56,294 nt of DNA from assembly GCA_025362495.1 (NCBI GenBank), contig JANYGI010000190.1:1-56294 (forward strand). Direction: 5' to 3'. Shown here one piece after another: positions 35,041-43,094 of this stretch. Origin of the DNA: Byssovorax sp. Lineage in GTDB: Bacteria; Myxococcota_A; Polyangia; Polyangiales; Polyangiaceae. The notes under the pieces were generated by a model, which was given only the letters and a program-made list of their open reading frames with translations, searched no databases and was not told the origin of the DNA. The position numbers were made by a program, and so were the translations under genes. Positions within the stretch are counted from its first letter, which is position 1. Every line of letters starts with the position of its first letter.

Positions 35041-35114
35041 TGGCACGGGGACGTGGACTCGAACCACGATCTGAGGAATCAAAGGCCCCCGTCCTGCCCT
35101 TGGACGATCCCCGC
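35041..35114 (-). tRNA. tRNA-Gln(TTG)
   Basis: Acceptor GCGGGGA/TCCCCGT, discriminator G and CCA encoded. Anticodon loop CTTTGAT; pair 31-39 is a C.T mismatch, as in the second Gln tRNA of the array. Last tRNA in transcription order. Confidence 0.85.
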
Positions 35115-35149
35115 ATGGTCTCGATAAAAGACGGGCAAGATATCGATGA

Positions 35150-35222
35150 CCGCGTAAATCGACGGGACTCGAACCCGCAACCTCTGCCTTGCGACAGCGC
35201 TCTACCATTGAGCTACGTCCCC
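35150..35222 (-). pseudogene. Degenerate tRNA (Ala-like)
   Basis: Good 5' acceptor GGGGACG, a perfect D-arm (TAGCTCAATGGTAGAGC) and T-arm (GCGGG TTCGAGT CCCGT). The anticodon region has no 7-nt loop and the 3' acceptor strand does not pair. Probably a decayed gene. Confidence 0.6.
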
Positions 35223-35423
35223 GTGACTTCGAGCGCCTCACAAAACCTCCCGTCGCCGTCATGCAGAGCCGCGGCTCTCGCCTGCGTTGCTCGGATTCGG
35301 CGTGCATTCGCACGCCTTCATCCTCGCGCCTTGGCGAGCTTGCGTCTCTTTCGCCGGCTCGGTCCGGTTTTGTTCGGCGCTCTTATTGCTGGTGGAGACG
35401 ATAACGCGATCATCACGGCCCGT

Positions 35424-35511
35424 CGGCGGAAGTCGGGTGAGTCGAACACCATGCCCTGACGGGCACGCTCCGGGTAGCAACCGGGCCCGGCACCATGCCG
35501 GTTCAGCTTCC
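35424..35511 (-). tRNA. tRNA-Ser(GCT)
   Basis: Class II: acceptor GGAAGCT/GACTTCC with weak pairs 6-7, D-arm CCGGC/GCCGG, loop TTGCTAC, long variable arm TGCCC/GGGCA and T-loop TTCGACT. Reads AGC/AGT. Confidence 0.82.
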
Positions 35512-35527
35512 ATGTGTCGTGCGAGAG

Positions 35528-35615
35528 CGGAAGACGGAGGTCCCGACCCCCACACCCCGCGTGGAGGTGCACGCTGCTTTCCAGGCAGGCCCGGCCCCCG
35601 GCCGGCTCATCTTCC
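35528..35615 (-). tRNA. tRNA-Ser(GGA)
   Basis: Class II: acceptor GGAAGAT/GTCTTCC, D-arm CCGGC/GCCGG, loop CTGGAAA. The T-arm is irregular: loop TCGGGAC instead of TTCGANT. Shares acceptor and D-arm with the neighbouring Ser(GCT). Confidence 0.75.
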
Positions 35616-35676
35616 ATCGAAGCAAGAGAGGCCTCACCCCCTCTCGCCGCGAACGGAGAGAGGGGGGCGAGCGTGG

Positions 35677-36180
35677 TCAGCAGTAGTGGAGCCACGACTC
35701 GGGGTGATTTCCCTCCCGCGAGACGACCGTGGTCATCGGCAGCGAGCGGGGCTTGACCGGCGCGCGGAGCAGCTTCATTCCGGCCTGCTCCGGCGTCCGA
35801 CCCCTCTTCATGCCGTTGCAGTCGTAGCAGGAAGCGACGATGTTCTCCCACACCGTCTTCCCGCCCTGAACGCGGGGGACGACGTGGTCGTAGTTGAGCT
35901 CCCGCGCCGACTTCCGCGCGCCACAGTACTGGCAGCGGAAGTCGTCACGCGCGAAGACGTTGTTGCGCGAGAACTTCACTCCGCGCTTCATCCCGCCGAG
36001 GGGCCGCTTCAGGCGGACCACGGCGGGCGCGCGGATGGAGAGCGACGGAGAGGCGATCTCCTCGTCGTACTCTTCGATGACCTCGACCTTTCCCAGGAAG
36101 CTCATCGTCACGGCGACTTGCCATGAGATGATCTTGTGGGGCCTCATCCACGGAGTGAGCAACAGCGTCAGCGCAGTCAT
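35677..36180 (-). CDS. HNH endonuclease embedded in the tRNA array
   Basis: 167 aa. Zinc knuckle and HNH core: FRCQYCGARKSAR, LNYDHVVPRVQGGKT and WENIVASCYDCNGMKRG. The N-terminal ISWQVAVTMSFLGKVEVIEEYD part is typical of a common free-standing bacterial HNH family, so it is full length. AGGTGG lies upstream of the ATG. It could be a homing-type mobility gene or an RNA/DNA-processing factor of the island; the sequence does not decide. It sits between Ser(GGA) and Leu(CAA). Confidence 0.88.
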   Translation of the reverse strand: MTALTLLLTPWMRPHKIISWQVAVTMSFLGKVEVIEEYDEEIASPSLSIRAPAVVRLKRPLGGMKRGVKFSRNNVFARDDFRCQYCGARKSARELNYDHVVPRVQGGKTVWENIVASCYDCNGMKRGRTPEQAGMKLLRAPVKPRSLPMTTVVSREGNHPESWLHYC

Positions 36181-36263
36181 GGTCCACCTCGTCCCCTACC
36201 TTCGCCTCATCCTCATCGCAGCTCTCCAGGCGCTCTCGCGCCGAACGGGAGATGAGCGACCCC

Positions 36264-36282
36264 TGGACGACCATCGTCCAGA
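36264..36282 (-). terminator. Hairpin between Leu(CAA) and the HNH gene
   Basis: Perfect 8-bp stem CTGGACGA/TCGTCCAG with loop TGG, 14 bases after the Leu tRNA. Could be a terminator or a processing signal. Confidence 0.5.
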
Positions 36283-36295
36283 GATTTCCACTCGG

Positions 36296-36369
36296 TGCTC
36301 GGGGCGGGACTCGAACCCGCACAAGACCGTTTTTGAGGCGGCCACGTTTGCCAGTTACGTCACCCGAGC
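36296..36369 (-). tRNA. tRNA-Leu(CAA), short variable loop
   Basis: Acceptor GCTCGGG/CCCGAGC, A73. Leu-type D-arm with CTGGCAAA, anticodon loop CTCAAAA, pair 31-39 C.A. The variable loop is only about 5 nt (CTTGT), whereas bacterial tRNA-Leu normally has a long arm. Confidence 0.85.
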
Positions 36370-36385
36370 ATTTTCTACAGACCGG

Positions 36386-36467
36386 TAGCACTGGTGGGGA
36401 TCGAACCCACACGCCCTTTCGAGCACGGAATCTCAGTCCGCTGCGTTTGCCATTTCGCCACAGTGCC
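36386..36467 (-). tRNA. tRNA-Leu(GAG)
   Basis: Canonical class II: acceptor GGCACTG/CAGTGCT, loop CTGAGAT, variable arm GCTC GAAA GGGC, T-arm GTGGG/CCCAC. The only Leu tRNA here with the expected long variable arm. Confidence 0.9.
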
Positions 36468-36471
36468 GTGA

Positions 36472-36544
36472 TATCCATGGGGGGAGTCGAACCCCCAAAA
36501 ACGGTTTCTGAGACCGCTGCGGTTGCCAGTTACGCCACATGGAT
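36472..36544 (-). tRNA. tRNA-Leu(CAG), short variable loop
   Basis: Acceptor ATCCATG/CATGGAT, loop CTCAGAA, stem GCGGT/ACCGT, T-stem GGGGG/CCCCC. Variable loop about 4 nt, so class-I-like despite a Leu D-arm. Confidence 0.85.
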
Positions 36545-36564
36545 GTGTTCATGAAATCGAACAG

Positions 36565-36636
36565 TGCAGGGCGTGAGGATCGAACTCACCTGATCCGGCT
36601 TGTCGAGCCGGTGCTCTCCCAGAGAACGAGCCCTGC
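36565..36636 (-). tRNA. tRNA-Val(GAC) with C33
   Basis: Acceptor GCAGGGC/GCCCTGC, A73. Perfect anticodon stem CCGGC/GCCGG around loop TCGACAA, which puts C at position 33 instead of the near-universal U. D-arm CTGGGAGAGC is Val-like. Confidence 0.82.
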
Positions 36637-36650
36637 GTGATCATCGCGGA

Positions 36651-36722
36651 TGGGGCAGCCGGGAGTCGAACCCGGAACGAGCTCCTTATCAGAGAGCTCA
36701 GGTCACCGTACCGTCCTGCCCC
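36651..36722 (-). tRNA. tRNA-Ile(GAT)
   Basis: Acceptor GGGGCAG/CTGCCCC, A73. Anticodon stem GCTCT/GGAGC with loop CTGATAA; D-arm reduced to GGT/ACC. Confidence 0.85.
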
Positions 36723-36739
36723 GACAGAACCCTTTTCGA

Positions 36740-36812
36740 TGCGGAACCAGGGGATCGAACCCTGCGAGCCCGGTTTGTGGGACCGGCGCATTCACCAGCT
36801 TGCTCGTCCCGC
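36740..36812 (-). tRNA. tRNA-Val(CAC) with C33
   Basis: Acceptor GCGGGAC/GTTCCGC, stem CCGGT/ACCGG, loop CCCACAA (C33, anticodon CAC), T-stem CAGGG/CCCTG. Confidence 0.8.
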
Positions 36813-36816
36813 GCGG

Positions 36817-36891
36817 TCTGGGTGAGAGGATTCGAACCTCCAATCCCCGGTTCCCCGAACCGGTGCTCTGACCAGATTGAGCCACACCCAG
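36817..36891 (-). tRNA. tRNA-Pro(GGG) with C33
   Basis: Acceptor CTGGGTG/CACCCAG, A73. Stem CCGGT/ACCGG, loop TCGGGGA with C33, anticodon GGG and G37 as expected for Pro. Confidence 0.88.
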
Positions 36892-36914
36892 ATGAATTTG
36901 TACTGCGAGAATGG

Positions 36915-36988
36915 TCTGGGTGAGAGGATTCGAACCTCCAATCGCCGGTGCCCGGAACCGGAGCTCTGCCAGATTGAGCCACACCCAG
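36915..36988 (-). tRNA. tRNA-Pro(CGG) with C33
   Basis: Nearly identical to the neighbouring Pro tRNA in acceptor, D-arm and T-arm; loop TCCGGGC gives C33 and anticodon CGG. A clear local duplication with anticodon change. Confidence 0.88.
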
Positions 36989-37025
36989 ATGAGTCGAGAA
37001 TCCCCACGAAAATGAGGGTTCTTCG

Positions 37026-37094
37026 TCGCGACGAGAGGAGTCGAACCTCCACGGACAGCCTTATGAGAGCCGCCGCTCGCCTCGAGGCGCCGCG
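37026..37094 (-). tRNA. tRNA-Met/Ile2(CAT), compact
   Basis: 69 nt. Acceptor CGCGGCG/CGTCGCG, A73, loop CTCATAA. D-arm TCG/CGA with only AGG in the loop. Elongator Met or lysidine-type Ile cannot be told apart. Confidence 0.8.
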
Positions 37095-37095
37095 G

Positions 37096-37164
37096 ATGCA
37101 GGAGCCGGAATTGAACCGGCAGAGTCGAGATTATGAGCCTCGGTTGGGACCGTCCCTTCCTGCG
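37096..37164 (-). tRNA. tRNA-Met(CAT), initiator-like
   Basis: 69 nt. Acceptor CGCAGGA/TCCTGCA leaves a C1.A72 mismatch, the bacterial initiator hallmark. T-loop TTCAATT is close to the initiator TTCAAAT. Loop CTCATAA. D-arm GGGA CGG TCCC. The three G-C pairs of a true initiator anticodon stem are not complete. One base separates it from the next tRNA. Confidence 0.78.
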
Positions 37165-37165
37165 G

Positions 37166-37236
37166 CGCCCCTGCCAGGAATCGAACCTGGGCAACAAGCT
37201 TCGGAGGCTTGTGTCTCGTGCCACGAGAACAGGGGC
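37166..37236 (-). tRNA. tRNA-Arg(CCG)
   Basis: Acceptor GCCCCTG/CAGGGGC, G73. Stem CAAGC/GCTTG, loop CTCCGAA, small D-loop between CTCG and CGAG. Abuts the initiator-like tRNA. Confidence 0.9.
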
Positions 37237-37274
37237 AGGGCGCCGCGCGTGAGAGCGCGGCGCTGATGAGTTGG

Positions 37275-37343
37275 CCTCTCTGCGAGGAGTCGAACCTCGC
37301 CAATCGAGTTCGTAGCCCGATGCCCGGCCGCCGGGACAGAGAG
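37275..37343 (-). tRNA. tRNA-Arg(ACG)
   Basis: Acceptor CTCTCTG/CAGAGAG, G73. Loop CTACGAA; A34 would be read as inosine. D-arm CCGG CGG CCGG has a 3-nt loop. Confidence 0.87.
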
Positions 37344-37568
37344 AACAGAGATGCGGAGCTCGCCGCAGCTCGCGAGCGTCATCGTGCCGTCCGCTGGACA
37401 GCGCAAGAACCATGCGAAAGTTTGCGCGCAGGATCTCCGCCGGGACCAGAGGCCCGGCGAAACGCGCCGCCCGGGAATCCGGAGCAAGCAGAGTGACGCT
37501 ACGTTGGCAGGCTCGACCACCGAGGCGCGGGCCCCCGAAGAAGCACACAGGTCGGCGAATCAGCCCGG
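37344..37568 (-). other. 225-bp spacer with hairpins
   Basis: No tRNA-like sequence. Contains a 7-bp hairpin CGCCGGG/CCCGGCG at 37438-37459 and a weaker stem around GCGCAA/TTGCGC near 37411. No supported ORF. Confidence 0.4.
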
Positions 37569-37643
37569 TGTCCCCAGCGGGATTCGAACCCGCGTTTCCA
37601 GAATGAGAATCTGGCTGCCTGGGCCATCTAGCAAGATGGGGAC
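37569..37643 (-). tRNA. tRNA-Glu(CTC)
   Basis: Acceptor GTCCCCA/TGGGGAC, A73, perfect stem CCAGA/TCTGG, loop TTCTCAT, T-stem GCGGG/CCCGC. Confidence 0.92.
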
Positions 37644-37664
37644 ATGGCAATCGAATAGAGACGG

Positions 37665-37733
37665 AGAGCCGACCGGGAATCGAACCCGGGACCGCGGTTT
37701 TGCAGACCACGTTCCTCGCCAGAGATCCGGCTC
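37665..37733 (-). tRNA. tRNA-Cys(GCA)
   Basis: Acceptor GAGCCGG/TCGGCTC with U73, the Cys identity base; loop CTGCAAA, stem GTGGT/ACCGC, T-stem CCGGG/CCCGG. Confidence 0.9.
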
Positions 37734-37752
37734 ATGAACACGAAACACCGAG

Positions 37753-37823
37753 AGCGGTGGAGGAGAATCGAACTCCCGTCCCGAGCTTGGCACGCTCGGA
37801 CTCTGCCACTGAGCTACCACCGC
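37753..37823 (-). tRNA. tRNA-Gly(GCC)
   Basis: Acceptor GCGGTGG/CCACCGC, U73 as in bacterial Gly, stem CGAGC/GCTCG, loop GTGCCAA, regular D-arm GCTC/GAGT. Confidence 0.92.
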
Positions 37824-37833
37824 AAATACGAGA

Positions 37834-37904
37834 AGCGAGCAGCGGGAATCGAACCCGCATCGACGGTTTGGAAGACCGTGGCCCTACCGTTGGACGATGC
37901 CCGC
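37834..37904 (-). tRNA. tRNA-Gly(TCC)
   Basis: Acceptor GCGGGCA/TGCTCGC, U73, stem ACGGT/ACCGT, loop CTTCCAA. Confidence 0.9.
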
Positions 37905-38034
37905 GAGATATTGCTCCAGCCTGTTGTTCTTCTTCTACCTTTCTACCTTCGAGCTGCTCGCGCGAATTGCACGCGCCGTCTCCTGCATACCAGGCAGGTG
38001 CCCCGCTATCTGGGCCTCAGCAGCATTCGTGGAG

Positions 38035-38110
38035 TCTCCTTTCCTCGAACCAGCCTCTTCCGGGTGCTCCTCCAGGTGGGCGATGCTCTCCTGGGTGAGC
38101 TACGACCCCT
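38035..38110 (-). pseudogene. tRNA remnant
   Basis: A consensus-like D-arm (TAGCTCACCCAGGAGAGCA) near 38080-38105 and a T-arm-like GGTTCGAGG near 38041-38055, with no consistent anticodon arm or acceptor between them. The rest of the 230-bp spacer (37905-38130) shows nothing else. Confidence 0.45.
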
Positions 38111-38133
38111 CTATTCCGACATCAAACGAACGG

Positions 38134-38204
38134 TGGAGCGCCGGGGAATCGAACCCCGATTTCTGCCATGCGAGAGCAGTGTTCTCCCATTGAACTATCG
38201 TCCC
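38134..38204 (-). tRNA. tRNA-Ala(CGC)
   Basis: Stem CTGCT/GGCAG, loop CTCGCAT, T-stem CGGGG/CCCCG, A73. Acceptor GGGACGA/GCGCTCC has two mispairs. D-arm GTTC/GAAC. Confidence 0.82.
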
Positions 38205-38259
38205 ATTCGGACAGGCAAAGGATGATCTGGGATTTGTCGCCGGCGGGGGTGATCCCGCC

Positions 38260-38333
38260 TGCGGCCGAGGATTTGAACCCCGTCGATGTCGACTTACAGT
38301 CGAATCTTTGCCAGATAACCCAGATCTCCGGCC
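38260..38333 (-). tRNA. tRNA-Tyr(GTA)-like, irregular
   Basis: Anticodon arm TTCGA CTGTAAG TCGAC and T-arm CGGGG TTCAAAT CCTCG are clear. The variable loop is short, the D-loop is expanded (about 14 nt), and the acceptor strands pair poorly, so the ends are approximate. May be decaying; a better Tyr(GTA) lies at 42462-42542. Confidence 0.6.
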
Positions 38334-38339
38334 CGCCGG

Positions 38340-38411
38340 CGCCCCAGAGGAGGATCGAACTCCCCTCACCTGATCGACAATCAGGCCGCCTCACCAGATG
38401 CGTACAAGGGC
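38340..38411 (-). tRNA. tRNA-Asp(GTC)
   Basis: Acceptor GCCCTTG/CTGGGGC with one mismatch, G73, perfect stem CCTGA/TCAGG, loop TTGTCGA. Confidence 0.86.
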
Positions 38412-38443
38412 AAATGAACTTGCGGTGATGAACCGACGAAACG

Positions 38444-38519
38444 TGGTGGAACCGGCCGGAGTCGAACCGACCACCTCCTGACTGCCAGCCAGGCGCTCTC
38501 CCGGATGAGCTACGATCCC
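38444..38519 (-). tRNA. tRNA-Ala(GGC)
   Basis: Acceptor GGGATCG/CGGTTCC, A73 and CCA encoded, stem CCTGG/TCAGG, loop CTGGCAG, consensus D-arm GCTC/GAGC. Confidence 0.9.
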
Positions 38520-38525
38520 AGGAAC

Positions 38526-38586
38526 GAGGCGGACCCGAGAGCCGCCGATCGAGGTTGGGGTCGATCACGGTGCTCCGATCCGCCTC
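38526..38586 (-). ncRNA. Acceptor-like hairpin RNA between Ala(GGC) and the tRNA-like element
   Basis: Ends pair over 8 bp (GAGGCGGA/TCCGCCTC). Inside is a stacked hairpin GAG-CCG-GATCG / CGATC-CGG-CTC with a 10-nt loop. Organisation recalls the two hairpin RNAs upstream of rsr (acceptor-like stem, internal loop, upper stem). Confidence 0.5.
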
Positions 38587-38600
38587 TGCGGTGGAAACTG

Positions 38601-38668
38601 CGGCGGGCAAAGGTGACCGGTGGGAGGGTCACGTTATCAAGGCGTTAACCCACCGGCAACGGCCCGCC
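38601..38668 (-). ncRNA. tRNA-like RNA abutting tRNA-Trp
   Basis: 68 nt with a perfect 7-bp acceptor GGCGGGC/GCCCGCC and G at position 73. A D-arm-like hairpin CGTT/AACG contains GG. A third stem GTGACC/GGTCAC has an 8-nt loop. There is no normal anticodon stem or TTCGANT loop. Its 5' base follows the CCA of tRNA-Trp directly, so it is probably released by tRNA-processing enzymes. A decayed tRNA is the alternative. Confidence 0.55.
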
Positions 38669-38742
38669 TGGCAGGGTGTGAGGGAGCTGCACCCTCCCGC
38701 GCGAGTTTTGGAGACTCGACCGTCTCTCCGACTGTACACCCT
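38669..38742 (-). tRNA. tRNA-Trp(CCA) with unusual T-loop
   Basis: Acceptor AGGGTGT/ACACCCT, G73 and CCA encoded, stem CGAGT/ACTCG, loop CTCCAAA. The T-stem GGGAG/CTCCC encloses GGTGCAG, not TTCGANT. Confidence 0.78.
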
Positions 38743-38812
38743 ATCTTGGACTCGTCAAGCACTCTTCTGATTCACCATCTCATCTTCTTTCCCTCCAGCA
38801 CTCTTGTGGTCA

Positions 38813-38955
38813 TGGCGCAGATGACGGGATTTGAACCCGCAACAGCCTGATTAAAATGATAACCATCTCTGGACGGCCCGACCCTGACGGGAAGGGCAAA
38901 GAGAGAGTCGAGATGGACTACTTCGGGTGCTCTGACCTGGTTGAGCTACATCTGC
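38813..38955 (-). tRNA. tRNA-Lys(TTT)-like with a 65-nt insertion in the anticodon loop
   Basis: Both halves are good tRNA: acceptor GCAGATG/CATCTGC, G73, CCA encoded, D-arm GCTC/GAGC, T-arm GCGGG TTCAAAT CCCGT. Between anticodon stem strands CCCGA and TCAGG lie 72 nt instead of 7. The 3' end of that stretch (TTTTAA) supplies U33, anticodon TTT and A37-A38. The insertion folds as CCATCTC/GAGATGG enclosing GCCC-CCC/GGG-GGGC. It lies one tRNA downstream of rsr. Much shorter than a group I intron. Confidence 0.75.
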
Positions 38956-38964
38956 AAGACTGCG

Positions 38965-39037
38965 TGCCCCCGGTGGGATTCGAACCCGCACGGCACGGTT
39001 CAGGAAACCGGTCCCTGATCCTCTCGGGTTCGGGGGC
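38965..39037 (-). tRNA. tRNA-Arg(CCT)
   Basis: Acceptor GCCCCCG/CGGGGGC, A73, loop TTCCTGA, stem CCGGT/ACCGT. First tRNA after rsr (stop 51 bases upstream). Confidence 0.85.
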
Positions 39038-39087
39038 GTGAGCGCGAGACGAGCCGGCGGAGCTCGTCTCTCGGGGTATTTCAGCGA

Positions 39088-40764
39088 TCAACGACCACGG
39101 GTGAAGTCCGCCATCACCTGCGGTGCGGCCGAGTCGAAACCCACGACATCGAGCATGCCGGGATCCTTCGGCTCGGCGATCGAGAAGCCCGTTGCCGTCA
39201 TGCCGACGACGATGAGCTTCGCGGGCCGCCCCATCGTCTGCCGGTAATCGCGCAGCGCCTGGAACGGGTGAACGGCGCCAGCCCACGTCTCGTTGTCCGT
39301 GTAGATGACGAACGTGTCGACCACGATCTTGTTCTTCGTGGCCCAGAGCATCGGCATCGAGCAGTCGGTGCCGCCCATCGGCAGACCCGAGACCAGCTTG
39401 AGCACGTCGTCGAGGCGCTGCTTGGGCGAGATCGGGAGCGGGGTGAGGCCGACGTCGCCGCCGCCCCACTGACCGCCGTAGCCCTTCGCTGCCGCGGTGA
39501 AGCCCACCACGGCAAACTCCGGCTCGATCCGCGCCGTCGCCATCGCCATCGCCGCGCTCGCGACCCGGGGCGTGAGGCCGGGGATACCGGCGATCGCGCC
39601 CGAGGCCATCGAGCCCGAGACGTCGAGCGCGAGCAAATGATTCTTCCCGGTCGGCTTCACGGCCTTGAAGGCCAGGTAGAACGCGTCGTTCAAGGCATCC
39701 ACGATCTGAAGATCCGGAGTCCACTTCAGCGCATTGGTCCTCTTCTGGGCGCGCTCACCGTGCCCCTGCTCATAGACCCTGAGGGCCGAGAGGAGAGCGA
39801 TCGGATGGACGCGCGCCCGCTCGAGGCGCCCCGCGTCGGTGAGCTTCTGCGCCACCTTGCGGGACGCTTCGCTCATCGGCGCCAGGAGGCCAATCGCCGT
39901 CATCTTGCCGAGGTTGCGGATCAGGGCGGTCTGCGGCATGTCCTCCAGCAGAGCCTCCCACACCTCTGGATCGTTCTTCCACTCGGACAGGAGCATCTCG
40001 TGCGTGAACCGGTGCTCCCGGATCAACGCGACGACCTGCTTCCGGTTCGTGGACGCCCGGAGCGACTCGAAGCCTCGAATCATCTTCGGGAGCTCCGCCT
40101 CCGCGATCGCCTTGCCCCGGGCGCTCTCGCGCGCGAGGCCCTCGAGCCCACCGGTGATCCAGCGGTAGAGAGCGTCGTGCTCGGGCGTGGGCGCCGTCGG
40201 GTGAGAGAGCCGCAAGAGATCCTTGTGACTCCATCCATCCCGCTGCTGGTACTTGATCGCCTGGTAGGCGACCTTGTCCGCCGGCTTATCGTTGTACCAG
40301 GCCGCGACGGCCCGACGCAGACCCCGACCCCACTTGCGGAAACCCTCCACGTCGCGCACGAAATGGAAGAGATCCGTACCGAAGCGGCAGACCCTGGGCA
40401 ACGCGTCGAGCGCGGCCCGGCGCGTGGCCGGATCCTCGGCGCCGGCGGCGATCGCCAGCGCGAAGATGGCAGGATCGTTCTTCGGCGCGCGCCCCGCGAC
40501 GCTGATCTCGGTGATCCGAGCGACGGTGCGCGGGCCATCCGCGCTCAGGCACTCGAGGAGCGAGAGCGCGTTCTCGCGGGTGAGCTTCTGCTCCGACGCA
40601 TAATACGTCGCGCCCTCGACGCCGAGGACGAGCCAGCGATCGAGACGAGCCCACCTGTCGAGCTCGAACACGAACCCGCCGGCGCTGTTCACCACCTGAT
40701 CGGAGCGCGCCTTCTCCATCTGCGGAGTGAAGAGCGCCGTGAAATGCTTCAAGTAACTGGTCAT
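39088..40764 (-). CDS. rsr: TROVE/vWA RNA-binding protein Rsr (bacterial Ro60)
   Basis: 558 aa, Ro60 orthologue. Ro proteins form a HEAT-repeat ring that binds Y RNAs and 3' ends of misfolded RNAs, and with PNPase help RNA decay or maturation. The TROVE domain spans about residues 10-365 (FVFELDRWARLDRWLVLG, YQAIKYQQRDGWSHKDLLRL). A von Willebrand A domain follows, with MIDAS LALDVSGSM near 380, GGTDCSMPM and VIYTDNETW. Start MTSYLKHFTALFTP follows GGAGGG. It sits inside the tRNA array, in the same orientation, 44 nt downstream of a hairpin RNA. No rtcB is seen. Confidence 0.95.
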   Translation of the reverse strand: MTSYLKHFTALFTPQMEKARSDQVVNSAGGFVFELDRWARLDRWLVLGVEGATYYASEQKLTRENALSLLECLSADGPRTVARITEISVAGRAPKNDPAIFALAIAAGAEDPATRRAALDALPRVCRFGTDLFHFVRDVEGFRKWGRGLRRAVAAWYNDKPADKVAYQAIKYQQRDGWSHKDLLRLSHPTAPTPEHDALYRWITGGLEGLARESARGKAIAEAELPKMIRGFESLRASTNRKQVVALIREHRFTHEMLLSEWKNDPEVWEALLEDMPQTALIRNLGKMTAIGLLAPMSEASRKVAQKLTDAGRLERARVHPIALLSALRVYEQGHGERAQKRTNALKWTPDLQIVDALNDAFYLAFKAVKPTGKNHLLALDVSGSMASGAIAGIPGLTPRVASAAMAMATARIEPEFAVVGFTAAAKGYGGQWGGGDVGLTPLPISPKQRLDDVLKLVSGLPMGGTDCSMPMLWATKNKIVVDTFVIYTDNETWAGAVHPFQALRDYRQTMGRPAKLIVVGMTATGFSIAEPKDPGMLDVVGFDSAAPQVMADFTRGR

Positions 40765-40807
40765 GACGATCCCTCCGGCCCGGAAACCCAGGCAAAATTG
40801 AATTGAT

Positions 40808-40876
40808 AGGACGGATGAAGAACTGCTCGCCCGGAGATTCAACCCACTTGATAACCGAGCAAAGAGCGACCCGTCC
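40808..40876 (-). ncRNA. Candidate Y-RNA-like hairpin RNA, copy 1
   Basis: 69 nt beginning directly after the encoded CCA of tRNA-His. Lower stem GGACGGG/TCCGTCC, internal loop TCGCTCT/TTCTTCA, upper stem TTGCTCG/CGAGCAG, 26-nt terminal loop starting GTTATC. Copy 2 (40991-41062) keeps the architecture with paired changes in the upper stem. Position immediately 5' of rsr is where bacterial Y RNA genes are commonly found. Function is inferred. Confidence 0.65.
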
Positions 40877-40950
40877 TGGTTGGGCGTACGGGAATCGAAC
40901 CCGCCTTTGTGGATTCACAATCCACTCCCTTCCCAGATGAGAAACGCCCA
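40877..40950 (-). tRNA. tRNA-His(GTG), copy 1
   Basis: Acceptor TGGGCGT/ACGCCCA with A73 and CCA encoded, stem GTGGA/TCCAC, loop TTGTGAA. A73 is unusual for His (normally C73 opposite G-1). Confidence 0.88.
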
Positions 40951-40990
40951 CGTGATCCGTGAAACAAGCAATAAGAAGCGATCGAGAATC

Positions 40991-41062
40991 GAGGACGGAT
41001 GAAGAGCGGACTCGCTCGGAGTGTCGTTTGCAAGGATAACCGAACGAAATGCGACCCGTCTC
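40991..41062 (-). ncRNA. Candidate Y-RNA-like hairpin RNA, copy 2
   Basis: 72 nt after tRNA-His copy 2. Lower stem GACGGG/TCCGTC, upper stem TCGTTCG/CGAGCGA, conserved internal-loop bases TCGC and CTTCA, and loop start GTTATC. Part of a tandem duplication of the tRNA-His plus hairpin unit. Confidence 0.62.
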
Positions 41063-41064
41063 GG

Positions 41065-41137
41065 GTGGGCGTACGGGAATCGAACCCGCCTTTGTGGATT
41101 CACAGTCCACTCCCTTCACCAGATGAGAAACGCCCAC
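41065..41137 (-). tRNA. tRNA-His(GTG), copy 2
   Basis: As copy 1 but with C73 and an encoded G-1, the complete His identity pair. Loop CTGTGAA. CCG follows instead of CCA. Confidence 0.9.
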
Positions 41138-41155
41138 GTGATACTGCGTGGAGAG

Positions 41156-41228
41156 TGGATCACCTCGGGGTCGAACCGAGCTATCGGAGGCTTCAACTCC
41201 GCGCAATCACCGGATTTGCTAGCGATCC
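41156..41228 (-). tRNA. tRNA-Phe(GAA)
   Basis: Acceptor GGATCGC/GTGATCC, A73, stem CGGAG/CTCCG, loop TTGAAGC, T-arm CTCGG TTCGACC CCGAG. Confidence 0.9.
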
Positions 41229-41242
41229 CTGTAAATACGTCG

Positions 41243-41313
41243 TGATCCGTGGGGGAATCGAACCCCCGTACCCGGTTTGAAAGACCGGGATCCTGCCACT
41301 GGAAGAACGGACC
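41243..41313 (-). tRNA. tRNA-Glu(TTC)
   Basis: Acceptor GGTCCGT/ACGGATC, A73, perfect stem CCGGT/ACCGG, loop CTTTCAA, T-stem GGGGG/CCCCC. Confidence 0.9.
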
Positions 41314-41317
41314 GCGG

Positions 41318-41389
41318 AGCCCTCGTCCGGAGTCGAACCGGATCCTCCTGCTTACGAAACAGGTGCTCTACCGCTCGAGCTTCGAGGGC
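41318..41389 (-). tRNA. tRNA-Thr(CGT)
   Basis: Acceptor GCCCTCG/CGAGGGC, stem CCTGT/GCAGG, loop TTCGTAA, D-arm GCTC/GAGC. The only Thr tRNA found in the array. Confidence 0.9.
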
Positions 41390-41442
41390 ACTATACGGAT
41401 GGCAGCGGTATCCCTGGAACCACCGCCGGAGCCAGGCTAGAG

Positions 41443-41515
41443 CTCCGCCGGAGGGAATCGAACCCCCAGATGACTCGCTTAACAGGCGAGCGCTTTACCA
41501 TTTAGCTACGGCGGA
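41443..41515 (-). tRNA. tRNA-Asn(GTT)
   Basis: Acceptor TCCGCCG/CGGCGGA, G73, stem CTCGC/GCGAG, loop CTGTTAA. Confidence 0.92.
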
Positions 41516-41520
41516 ACGAG

Positions 41521-41582
41521 GGGGACGCACACGGGCGTCCCCTCGCATACTATCGAACGATCGGTTGTCAGAGGACGAGGCG
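41521..41582 (-). repeat. 60-bp repeated hairpin element, copy 1
   Basis: Shares about 58 of 62 bases with 42214-42275: CTCTGACAACCGATCG, then CGATAGTATGC, ending in hairpin GGGGACGC CCGTGT GCGTCCCC. Lies between Lys(TTT) and Asn; a preceding stem GAATCG/CGATTC is seen at 41596-41630. Confidence 0.7.
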
Positions 41583-41630
41583 CGGCTATCCCGCGTGTTG
41601 AATCGGGCGCAGGGTTCAGCCTGCGATTCG

Positions 41631-41702
41631 TGAGCCCGAGAGGAATCGAACCTCCACAAAGCCGCTTAAAAGGCGGCCGCTCTACCTTTGAGCTACGGGC
41701 TC
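41631..41702 (-). tRNA. tRNA-Lys(TTT)
   Basis: Acceptor GAGCCCG/CGGGCTC, A73, perfect stem GCCGC/GCGGC, loop CTTTTAA, consensus D-arm. The uninterrupted counterpart of the 38813 gene. Confidence 0.93.
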
Positions 41703-41713
41703 GGCGGCATGGG

Positions 41714-41785
41714 TGGACCCGGAGGGAATCGAACCCTCTCATGGCTGCTTAAGAGACAGCTGCTCGACCATCGAGCTGCGAGTCC
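41714..41785 (-). tRNA. tRNA-Lys(CTT)
   Basis: Acceptor GGACTCG/CGGGTCC, A73, stem GCTGT/GCAGC, loop CTCTTAA, D-arm GCTC/GAGC. Confidence 0.9.
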
Positions 41786-41816
41786 ATGTCCTGCGAGCAG
41801 CACCCCGGAGACGACG

Positions 41817-41846
41817 AAGGCCGCCGAGGTTTCCCTGGGCGGCCTT
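41817..41846. terminator. Hairpin downstream of small ORF 1
   Basis: Nine-bp stem AAGGCCGCC/GGCGGCCTT, 35 nt after the stop of the 60-codon ORF. The same hairpin recurs at 43177-43208 and, diverged, at 42721-42750. Confidence 0.65.
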
Positions 41847-41881
41847 CACGATCGTCACGAATGACGGGTGTTGGTGCCGCT

Positions 41882-42064
41882 TCAGGGGCCATTCTTCAGG
41901 TTACCGAGCCCGCGCGCGATCCGCGAGGTGCCGTGGCAACGGGGGGAATGGGTAAAGGGATGTACGCTGTCGATTCGTCCAGCCAAGGACGCCAGCCGGG
42001 CGAGAGCATCCCACATCGTGGGCTTCTCGTTCAGCGGTTGGTCGTTGGTCAGACAGAGCATCAT
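41882..42064 (-). CDS. 60-aa small protein, paralogue A
   Basis: Starts MMLCLTNDQPLNEKPTMWD after a GAGG ribosome site. Shares NDQ, PTMWD, ASLAGR-DS, F-H, SRIAR-LG with the 60-aa product at 43244-43426, same length and same stop context. Conservation at protein level across a diverged repeat supports real coding. No known family; might be a regulator or toxin-like peptide, but nothing shows this. Confidence 0.6.
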   Translation of the reverse strand: MMLCLTNDQPLNEKPTMWDALARLASLAGRIDSVHPFTHSPRCHGTSRIARGLGNLKNGP

Positions 42065-42213
42065 GGCGAATCCTCGGTGGGTGGTTACTACGATGCTTCG
42101 ACGAAGCTCGCAAGGGAAATTTTCAAGCTCACATCTTTTTCTATTTTCGAGAGTGTCACTCTATCGACGCGCGCAAATCACGCCAGACAGAGATGGACGA
42201 GGACACTTGAACA

Positions 42214-42275
42214 CGGGGACGCACACGGGCGTCCCCCTGCATACTATCGAACGATCGGTTGTCAGAGAACGAGGC
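42214..42275 (-). repeat. 60-bp repeated hairpin element, copy 2
   Basis: Second copy of the 41521 element, directly after a small hairpin GCATGG/CCATGC that trails tRNA-Gln(CTG). Confidence 0.7.
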
Positions 42276-42290
42276 ATGGAGATCCATGCT

Positions 42291-42365
42291 TGGAACCGGG
42301 AGCAGGGCTCGAACCTGCATTGGCGGAGTCAGAGACCGCTGTCCTGCCGACTGGACGATCCCGGC
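42291..42365 (-). tRNA. tRNA-Gln(CTG)
   Basis: Acceptor GCCGGGA/TCCCGGT, CCA encoded, stem GCGGT/TCCGC with T.T at 31-39, loop CTCTGAC, T-arm TGCAGG TTCGAGC CCTGC. Confidence 0.87.
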
Positions 42366-42384
42366 AAATACCTGCATAGGAGAG

Positions 42385-42460
42385 GAGAGCTCGAGTGGAG
42401 TCGAACCTTCATCTCCGAACGCAACTCTGCGGTCGCTCGTCACGACGAGCGTTTTCCGCG
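42385..42460 (-). pseudogene. tRNA remnant
   Basis: A T-arm-like GAAGGTTCGACTCC and a D-region hairpin CGCTCG/CGAGCG are present, but no acceptor pairing or 7-nt anticodon loop. The adjacent 42543-42720 stretch shows no gene. Confidence 0.4.
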
Positions 42461-42461
42461 G

Positions 42462-42542
42462 TGTGGAAGGGAGGAGTTGAACCTCCAGGCCCGAAGGCGG
42501 GCGGTTTACAGCCGCTTGGGCGCACCAATGCCCAGCATCCAC
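42462..42542 (-). tRNA. tRNA-Tyr(GTA)
   Basis: Class II: acceptor GTGGATG/CTTCCAC with one mismatch, strong D-arm TGGGC/GCCCA, stem GCGG/CCGC, loop CTGTAAA, variable hairpin CCCG CCTT CGGG, T-loop TTCAACT, A73. Confidence 0.88.
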
Positions 42543-42720
42543 ATGGAAGCCTGGTGCTTTTCGCCGATGCGGGCGCGCGGCCGGCGTTGTCGTCGTCACC
42601 GTACTTGCGTACGGCTCCTCCTCCGCCTTCGCCGCACACCCACCTCGACGAAAATCACTGGCGGCTTCGCGTCTGGTTCAGGCACGAAGCGACATGATTT
42701 TCGAGCGCGCTGAGACGGCG

Positions 42721-42750
42721 AGGGCCGCCTCGGTGTCCCGGGGCGGCCCT
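42721..42750. terminator. Diverged copy of the repeat hairpin
   Basis: AGGGCCGCC/GGCGGCCCT, placed like the hairpins after the two 60-codon ORFs. Confidence 0.5.
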
Positions 42751-42782
42751 CCGCGCGTCACGAGTGACGAGCGAATGGTGCC

Positions 42783-42965
42783 CTAGGAGCGATCCTCCAG
42801 CTGTCCGGCGAGGCCGAACAGGCGCGTTTGCGCGGCGCTGGAGGTGGCCGGTGAATACCGGCCCTGGATTGGTCGTGACGGAGCTCCACCATTACATTCG
42901 CAATGGCGCAAACGATTGAAATCGCTCGCGATCACTGCCATGTTAATGGTTGTCCGACACTTCAT
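42783..42965 (-). CDS. Possible third 60-codon ORF
   Basis: MKCRTTINMAVIASDFNRLR to the end LAGQLEDRS; exactly 60 codons, with the same downstream layout (stop, then hairpin) as the two paralogues. Only the C-terminus resembles them (LEDRS against PEDGS), so this is weak. Confidence 0.3.
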   Translation of the reverse strand: MKCRTTINMAVIASDFNRLRHCECNGGAPSRPIQGRYSPATSSAAQTRLFGLAGQLEDRS

Positions 42966-42984
42966 GATGGTTGTCACGTAGCCC

Positions 42985-43094
42985 GGCAGGCCAGATGAGA
43001 CTCCCCATCTCACCCCTGCTGGGCGCACTACTCCCCTGTTGCACACCCGGGGTTCGCACCCCGGACGCACAGATGAATCGCTGGCCTGTTCGAC
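42985..43094 (-). ncRNA. Structured RNA with acceptor-like closing stem
   Basis: Ends pair over 8 bp (CAGGCCAG/CTGGCCTG). A 13-bp hairpin (TGTGCGT-CCGGGG / CCCCGG-GTGTGCA) works only on the minus strand because several pairs are G.U. A T-arm-placed hairpin TGAGA TGGGGAG TCTCA precedes the 3' strand. No isotype can be assigned. Confidence 0.5.

Follow-up and report, generated by a model that had tools for sequence, protein, structure and literature searches.

Short Y RNA-like hairpins between tRNA-His genes and rsr in a Byssovorax tRNA array

The window, by which we mean the whole 56,294-nucleotide stretch of Byssovorax sp. DNA that was analysed, carries on its minus strand a tRNA array in which rsr, a Ro60 orthologue, lies among predicted Y-type RNA elements. 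Judged by sequence, the array holds at least five such elements (H1, H2, 38668-38602, 38338-38209 and 38955-38813), of which the latter three were absent from the first-pass annotation of this DNA. The features are as follows.

35041..42542, minus strand: tRNA array holding rsr and the Y elements, with 29 ARAGORN tRNA genes
41063..41136, minus strand: tRNA-His copy B (ARAGORN), directly 5′ of H2
40993..41061, minus strand: H2, second putative mini-Y hairpin, between both tRNA-His genes; leave-out model R3 40.7 bits, E 1e-8
40877..40950, minus strand: tRNA-His copy A (ARAGORN; Rfam tRNA 44.3 bits)
40809..40876, minus strand: H1, putative stand-alone mini-Y hairpin flanked by tRNA-His copy A and rsr; 44.3 bits (E 1e-9) with leave-out model R3
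39088..40764, minus strand: rsr, Ro60 orthologue with TROVE and vWA_Ro60 domains (Pfam PF25045 214 bits, PF05731 163.9 bits)
38813..38955, minus strand: putative tRNA-embedded Y, a tRNA body with the anticodon loop replaced by a closed Ro-type stem with GGUUAUC
38602..38668, minus strand: third putative stand-alone mini-Y, GGCGGGCCG..GUGGGUUAAC..CCCAC..UUUGCCCGCC; R2 41.9 bits
38209..38338, minus strand: putative Y element with an open Ro-type stem and an internal module with a T-arm-like hairpin; R3 E 3.1e-4

Read along the minus strand, tRNA-His B (41136-41063) is followed by H2 (41061-40993), tRNA-His A (40950-40877), H1 (40876-40809) and rsr, whose ATG lies at 40764. H1 begins 0 nt after tRNA-His A and H2 1 nt after tRNA-His B, with 42 nt between H2 and the next tRNA-His and 44 nt between the end of H1 and the rsr start codon. 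H1 is followed by the rsr leader, as are the single copies of the relatives compared. Copy A of tRNA-His has an encoded CCA and A73 opposite G-1 (positions by eye), and its D loop is one base shorter than that of copy B. By eye, a small GC hairpin ending GGGCCGGAGG adjoins the rsr ribosome-binding site in the window (40765-40808) and in several relatives, and a similar GC hairpin precedes some rsr genes outside arrays.

Outside the array the genome has 41 further Rfam tRNA matches, and ARAGORN genes there cover 18 of the 20 amino acids, including His; no Cys or Ile tRNA gene was seen outside the array in this draft assembly. The median Rfam tRNA score is 52 bits in the array (26 matched) versus 66 bits outside it, and because of these lower scores the array looks like a second, diverged tRNA set. 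It appears to be largely redundant, with full redundancy not proved given the Cys and Ile gap. As described for the tRNA arrays of Mycobacterium and the Anabaena trn operon (PMC5966550, PMC12803027, PMC10272220), a dense cluster stands beside scattered tRNA genes, but the present one has rsr and Y RNAs interspersed among its tRNAs, unlike those as far as a term search goes: the terms rsr and TROVE do not occur in the searched text of those three papers. The link of Y RNAs to tRNA arrays offers a handle on the purpose of such arrays.

The first-pass annotation had described two hairpins with common strings, and both were found, with best boundaries at 40876-40809 and 41061-40993. The strings common to H1 and H2 are GACGGGTCGC, GTTATC and CTTCATCCGTCC (minus strand). 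In their family the paired 5′ and 3′ ends form a basal stem with a conserved Ro site and a bulged C. Both hairpins read GGUUAUC, which places UUAUC at the 5′ end of the loop, and both terminal loops are 20 nt long, without T, acceptor or D arms. Shuffle z scores of the single-sequence folds are -3.04 for H1 and -1.94 for H2. A covariance model from homologous loci had been proposed as a check, and R3, built from nine relatives and zero window sequences, recovers H1 and H2 far above chance: at E<=5 it finds three sites only in the 56-kb window, H1 (1e-9), H2 (1e-8) and 38338-38209 (3.1e-4).

In an 11-sequence alignment, all cells of the 15 pairs are standard pairs and 4 of the 15 show two-sided change, a count reached by 8 of 500 shuffles; the covariation score was reached by none of the 500. 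A 20-sequence alignment (A8), which consists of model-fitted matches and is thereby fitted to the structure, shows two-sided change in 10 of 15 pairs; none of 500 shuffles matched either the count or the covariation score, and pairing is far lower when the partner strand is slid by 1-3 columns. A MAFFT alignment of 19 mini-Ys (A7) was dropped for A8, its 3′ strand being shifted by one in some rows. Covariation, whose absence among more homologues had been named as a point against the hairpins, is thus strong across the family. The full paired swap claimed earlier between H1 and H2 did not survive: it depends on the register TTGCTCG/CGAGCAG, and in the register common to the relatives, TTGCTCGG/CCGGGCGA, the two upper stems differ by three one-sided, wobble-compatible changes only (alignment by eye). 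The covariation is between species and not between the H1 and H2 copies.

The same hairpin is found between tRNA-His and rsr in Sorangium, Minicystis and other family members. When a first model (R1) was run on 108 family genomes, 14 had matches above 50 bits, all directly upstream of rsr (twice in the window's genome), and weaker matches came from G033, G107 and G143, none of which has a TROVE match. Strong rsr genes (TROVE stretch >=60 bits) are present in 19 family genomes, five of which (G008, G010, G039, G049 and G052) have a strong rsr but no upstream hairpin above 50 bits. Of these, G039 has a mini-Y (52.8 bits) directly after rsr on its downstream side, tRNA-embedded forms are present at rsr in G010, G049 and G052, and no Y element was seen at the rsr locus of G008, where rsr is at a contig edge.

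Across 289 class genomes, a wider model (R2) gave 32 matches in 23 genomes at E<=0.01. Twenty-two of the 23 genomes have rsr and 30 of the 32 matches lie at most 5.5 kb from it, the other two being in G033. Ten of the matched genomes were unused in building R2, although one of them, G086, is a congener of a training genome; all 11 of their 11 matches lie beside rsr. A separate search (E<=1e-30; taken as the same genome set) found rsr in 40 of the 289 genomes, and R2 at E<=0.01 had no match in 18 of those 40, in a search that under-detects, given that the third mini-Y of the window (41.9 bits elsewhere) was also missed. Weaker or embedded elements do occur near rsr in some of these genomes, and others may be without any Y element. 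G033, an assembly of about 860 contigs, has two mini-Ys above 54 bits and no TROVE match. On a 13-kb contig, its locus at G033:C337:116-398 (L084) carries two mini-Ys in tandem as well as a tRNA-embedded Y; either rsr was lost or there is a gap in the assembly. Among 25 elements, partly chosen by these same motifs, the 5′ Ro core GGG[C/U]CG occurs in all 25, its matching 3′ strand in 23 by pattern, UUA[U/C]C directly after the upper stem in 23, and an [A/G]UG upper-stem side in six, window 38668-38602 included.

Such placement could also mean that H1 is a cis-acting rsr leader, with Rsr binding its own mRNA and controlling its own expression and with no separate RNA. H1 lies 44 nt from the rsr start codon, this hairpin type is just upstream of rsr in 13 of 13 other array-type family genomes with a match above 50 bits, and a second small hairpin adjoins the ribosome-binding site (by eye). 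However, H2, 38668-38602 and 38338-38209 are not rsr leaders, a mini-Y lies downstream of rsr in G039, G071 and G086, and Sorangium has a second copy downstream of rsr, after tRNA-Ala. We therefore regard a cis-acting leader as possible, if unlikely.

A second, distant rsr type (24-31% identity) was also seen. In L016-L021, L023 and L024 it lies among several same-orientation tRNA genes with no R1 match at E<=5, and in L022, L025, L026 and L027 one or zero tRNA genes are nearby.

Of the 15 H1-type copies (the window's H1 and H2, plus 13 from relatives), 14 follow an ARAGORN tRNA-His at a distance of 0-3 nt, often directly behind the encoded CCA, and the fifteenth, L004, has the same flanking sequence with the tRNA uncalled. 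More widely, 23 of 39 Y elements start at most 6 nt from an ARAGORN tRNA end, versus 6.2% of random spacer positions; no called tRNA precedes the mini-Ys of G033 (both), G039, G071 and G086. Promoter and terminator scans of the window region were uninformative. The first-pass annotation had proposed that the hairpins are released from tRNA-His precursors by tRNA 3′-end and 5′-end processing, and half of this is plausible. The abutment of their 5′ ends to the tRNA-His 3′ end points to tRNA 3′ processing as the step that defines these ends, or else to a lasting tRNA-Y fusion. For the 3′ ends, tRNA 5′ processing is an unlikely source, since H2 is followed by 42 nt before the next tRNA and no tRNA lies between H1 and rsr.

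If the fusion were lasting, H1 and H2 would be parts of a stable tRNA-Y RNA in which the tRNA replaces the internal tRNA-like module of YrlA. Consistent with this are the 0-3 nt spacing, often just past an encoded CCA, and the tRNA-embedded Y in the same locus; moreover, the array tRNA-His may be dispensable because another tRNA-His gene (L059) lies elsewhere in the genome. The several mini-Ys without a preceding called tRNA (those of G033, G039, G071 and G086) argue against it, and we consider such a fusion unlikely. Abutment to tRNA 3′ ends, together with T-rich stretches after the stem in some relatives, would also suit terminators, processing signals or small mobile repeats lying by chance in tRNA spacers. 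Yet a terminator scan of 38000-43000 gave 4 sites versus 3.5 expected, none of them H1 or H2 and one overlapping the tRNA-embedded Y, the 351-bp region has no further copy in the genome by DNA search at E<=0.001, and the conserved internal loop and bulge suit neither idea, which makes an origin of this kind hardly credible.

The third mini-Y (38668-38602) is directly 3′ of a tRNA-Trp-like sequence (~38741-38669, by eye; not called by ARAGORN). It is not found by R3 in the window at E<=5, and its fold z is -1.22 as folded, single-sequence folding being weak there. The element at 38338-38209 is directly 3′ of tRNA-Asp and has a fold z of -4.11. The nematode sbRNA model RF01656 matches both below its cut-off, at 23.2 bits (E 0.016) for the third mini-Y and 21.1 bits (E 0.024) for 38338-38209.

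The putative tRNA-embedded Y at 38955-38813 has a tRNA body with acceptor GCAGATG/CATCTGC, D arm, T arm and encoded CCA, and an insert that runs in the order upper stem, 3′ Ro strand, capped stem, 5′ Ro strand, upper stem and UUAUC. A closed stem-loop stands in place of the seven-nucleotide anticodon loop of a functional tRNA, and neither ARAGORN nor Rfam at cut-off recognises the element as a tRNA. We aligned it with 17 similar elements of relatives, and each of the 18 has an upper helix of 7-9 bp with at most one mismatch. When upper-stem partners were swapped among them, 0 of 2000 permutations reached the observed pairing, although with cross pairing of 6.9 of 8 versus 7.8 this is a modest test. 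Of the 15 embedded elements searched with the Rfam tRNA model, nine have above-cut-off matches that cover the insert (for example L035 at 54.2 and L009 at 51.1 bits), the exceptions being L003, L005 732-862, L008, L013 373-511, L034 and the window copy. The automatic finder of embedded forms also gave false frames, and 18 candidates were kept and seven dropped: window 41003-40822, L079, L082 and L083 overlap H1-type hairpins, and window 38458-38258, L005 1185-1010 and L013 1467-1305 have an unconvincing tRNA 5′ half. Single-sequence folding is weak for L008 (z -0.71), and the clustered copies (L005, L013) deserve less confidence than those that stand singly, because tandem YrlA units can mimic an embedded Y in another register, as in a Gordonia phage. 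The locus may also contain YrlA in a natural, un-permuted form, in which a tRNA keeps its acceptor open and has the Ro stem closed within its anticodon loop. Such a form suggests a way in which Y RNA and tRNA could turn into each other, by moving the open end. By eye, dumbbell-like elements at L008:3295-3380 and near 899 of L005 (minus strand) have a closed Ro-type stem in a plain outer stem with no tRNA arms, and carry GGUUAUC or GGUUACC.

In animal Y RNAs, a bulged nucleotide within GGUCCGA is described as critical to Ro60 binding (PMC11277228, PMC4726728), and UUAUC, located at the 5′ end of the sbRNA loop and also in vertebrate Y RNAs, is described as required for sbRNA activity in DNA replication (PMC4450293, PMC4726728). 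The elements studied here share with sbRNA and animal Y RNAs a lower stem with a bulged C, an upper stem, UUAUC at the loop 5′ end and, in the six of 25, the [A/G]UG upper-stem motif. H1 and H2 differ in that the [A/G]UG-CA[C/U] motif is absent, the loop is much shorter and RF01656 gives no match at E<=5. Sister hairpins pass the RF01656 gathering score of 38 (G033 at 45.7 bits; G031 at 41.2 and 38.5 bits), and the 108 genomes give five matches at E<=0.01, three in G031 and the others in G033 and G139, all in Y clusters; 14 control genomes give none at that threshold. In the Rfam alignment of RF01656, GGGUCGGAG falls on GGUCCGGAG and CUUAUCC on CUUGACC. The vertebrate Y model RF00019 found nothing above cut-off in 14 genomes. 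Sub-threshold, it matches the second Sorangium mini-Y (G139, E 0.005) and the G195 array about 0.9 kb upstream of rsr (E 0.07), and such matches also occur in 4 of 14 control genomes. The likeness to animal Y RNAs may reflect homology or convergence. Bacterial Y RNAs are stated in a review not to be homologous with the vertebrate Y RNA clades (PMC4726728), and hairpins beside rsr that combine a Ro site with UUAUC and, in some, [A/G]UG, and that in two genomes exceed the nematode cut-off, make this statement directly testable with existing assays of Ro60 binding and cell-free replication.

Y RNAs, YrlA, tRNA arrays and phage Ro proteins all have precedent; 341 phage records carry a relative of this Rsr, and Y RNAs of mycobacteria and mycobacteriophages have been reported. 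None of the literature titles concerned bacterial mini-Ys with animal motifs or a tRNA-embedded Y, in a comparison that lies outside the primary studies (Chen 2013, Chen 2014, Sim and Wolin 2018, Wang 2018, Sim 2020). The hairpins resemble YrlA (RF02553) of Salmonella, mycobacteria and phages in being linked to rsr; YrlA is described as using its basal stem for Rsr and as tethering PNPase (PMC8394870), and its phage copies share the GGUUA[U/C]C junction. However, the Rfam model of YrlA consists of stem, T arm, closed acceptor, D arm and stem, and H1 and H2 hold none of these arms, while 38955-38813 opens the opposite way, with the acceptor open and the Ro stem closed. H1 and H2 can also be set, by description only, beside the Deinococcus radiodurans Y RNA of RYPER (Rsr-Y RNA-PNPase), with which they would share a role as an Rsr ligand that tethers or gates (PMC4726728, PMC8394870) and which is itself described as having no upper-stem similarity to vertebrate Y RNAs (PMC4726728).

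A reading of H1 and H2 as ordinary, diverged members of the described YrlA family draws on RNAs with GGUUA[U/C]C that lie upstream of phage and plasmid rsr homologues (~33-50% identity), one of them scoring 42.2 bits against Rfam YrlA (E 3e-8), below the cut-off of 69. It is very unlikely, given that H1 and H2 are without the T-arm, acceptor or D-arm module and that none of 16 genomes has an RF02553 match over its gathering score of 69. Rfam at gathering scores finds no Y family in the window, and the H1/H2 region has no RF02553 match at E<=5. Sub-threshold RF02553 matches in the 16 genomes are uninformative because 13 of 14 controls give them too. The best in the window (30.7 bits) is an annotation trap: at 41766-41655 it covers a tandem pair of tRNA-Lys genes, and the probable cause is that a permuted tRNA resembles a tandem-tRNA junction. 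Elements with GGUUA[U/C]C, several of them tandem and YrlA-like, were seen upstream of rsr in mycobacterial and Gordonia phages, Picosynechococcus and Nonomuraea (loci L090, L091, L093 and L094). Rhizobium (L095) and Bosea (L092) are less clear, with weak R2 matches only and, in Bosea, no motif by pattern.

As the first-pass annotation had suggested, H1 and H2 are very probably Y RNAs and predicted Rsr ligands, a reading to which rsr synteny, covariation, the Ro-site motif with its bulged C, UUAUC, recovery by the leave-out model and sister hairpins that pass the sbRNA cut-off all point. The explanation as a whole, in which we place high confidence, is that they are short-class Y RNAs without a tRNA-like module, made from the array transcript, bound by Rsr and belonging to a set of interchangeable adaptors. 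From the observed structure, covariation, motif, rsr linkage and tRNA abutment we infer the steps of transcription, processing, Rsr binding, gating and tethering as follows. H1 and H2 would probably be made from the tRNA-array transcript, and tRNA-His 3′ processing would probably define their 5′ ends. The lower stem (GGGU/AUCC, the bulged C and the next G) would bind the outer face of Rsr, and the upper stem with the UUAUC loop start may gate the RNA cavity of Rsr or hold a partner. Sister elements would equip this one Rsr with several kinds of effector end (a tRNA body, a T-arm module or none), in which case the adaptors of Rsr encoded at the locus would form an interchangeable set. The tRNA-bearing members may tether an exonuclease, as described for YrlA and PNPase (PMC8394870). 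Gating and tethering are indistinguishable at the level of sequence.

In eight class relatives, a Y-type element downstream of rsr runs into a 23S rRNA segment, GTAACTATAACGG[N]CCTAAGGTAGCGA. These elements lie on the plus strand at L106 5536, L109 5616, L114 2934, L117 4977 and L120 5314 and on the minus strand in L108, L115 and L122, and carry GGGCCG..GGUUACC, GAUUAUC or GAUUACC; the segment is slightly altered in L122, and L017, which has the distant rsr type, holds part of it. In the window's own genome a search that allowed up to one mismatch did not recover the pattern, so rRNA genes may be missing from that assembly. By sequence, the element looks like a Y RNA with an effector end that mimics 23S rRNA, the mimicked segment being what we take to be the helix 69-71 region. 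The L117 copy matches E. coli 23S rRNA exactly over 29 nt.
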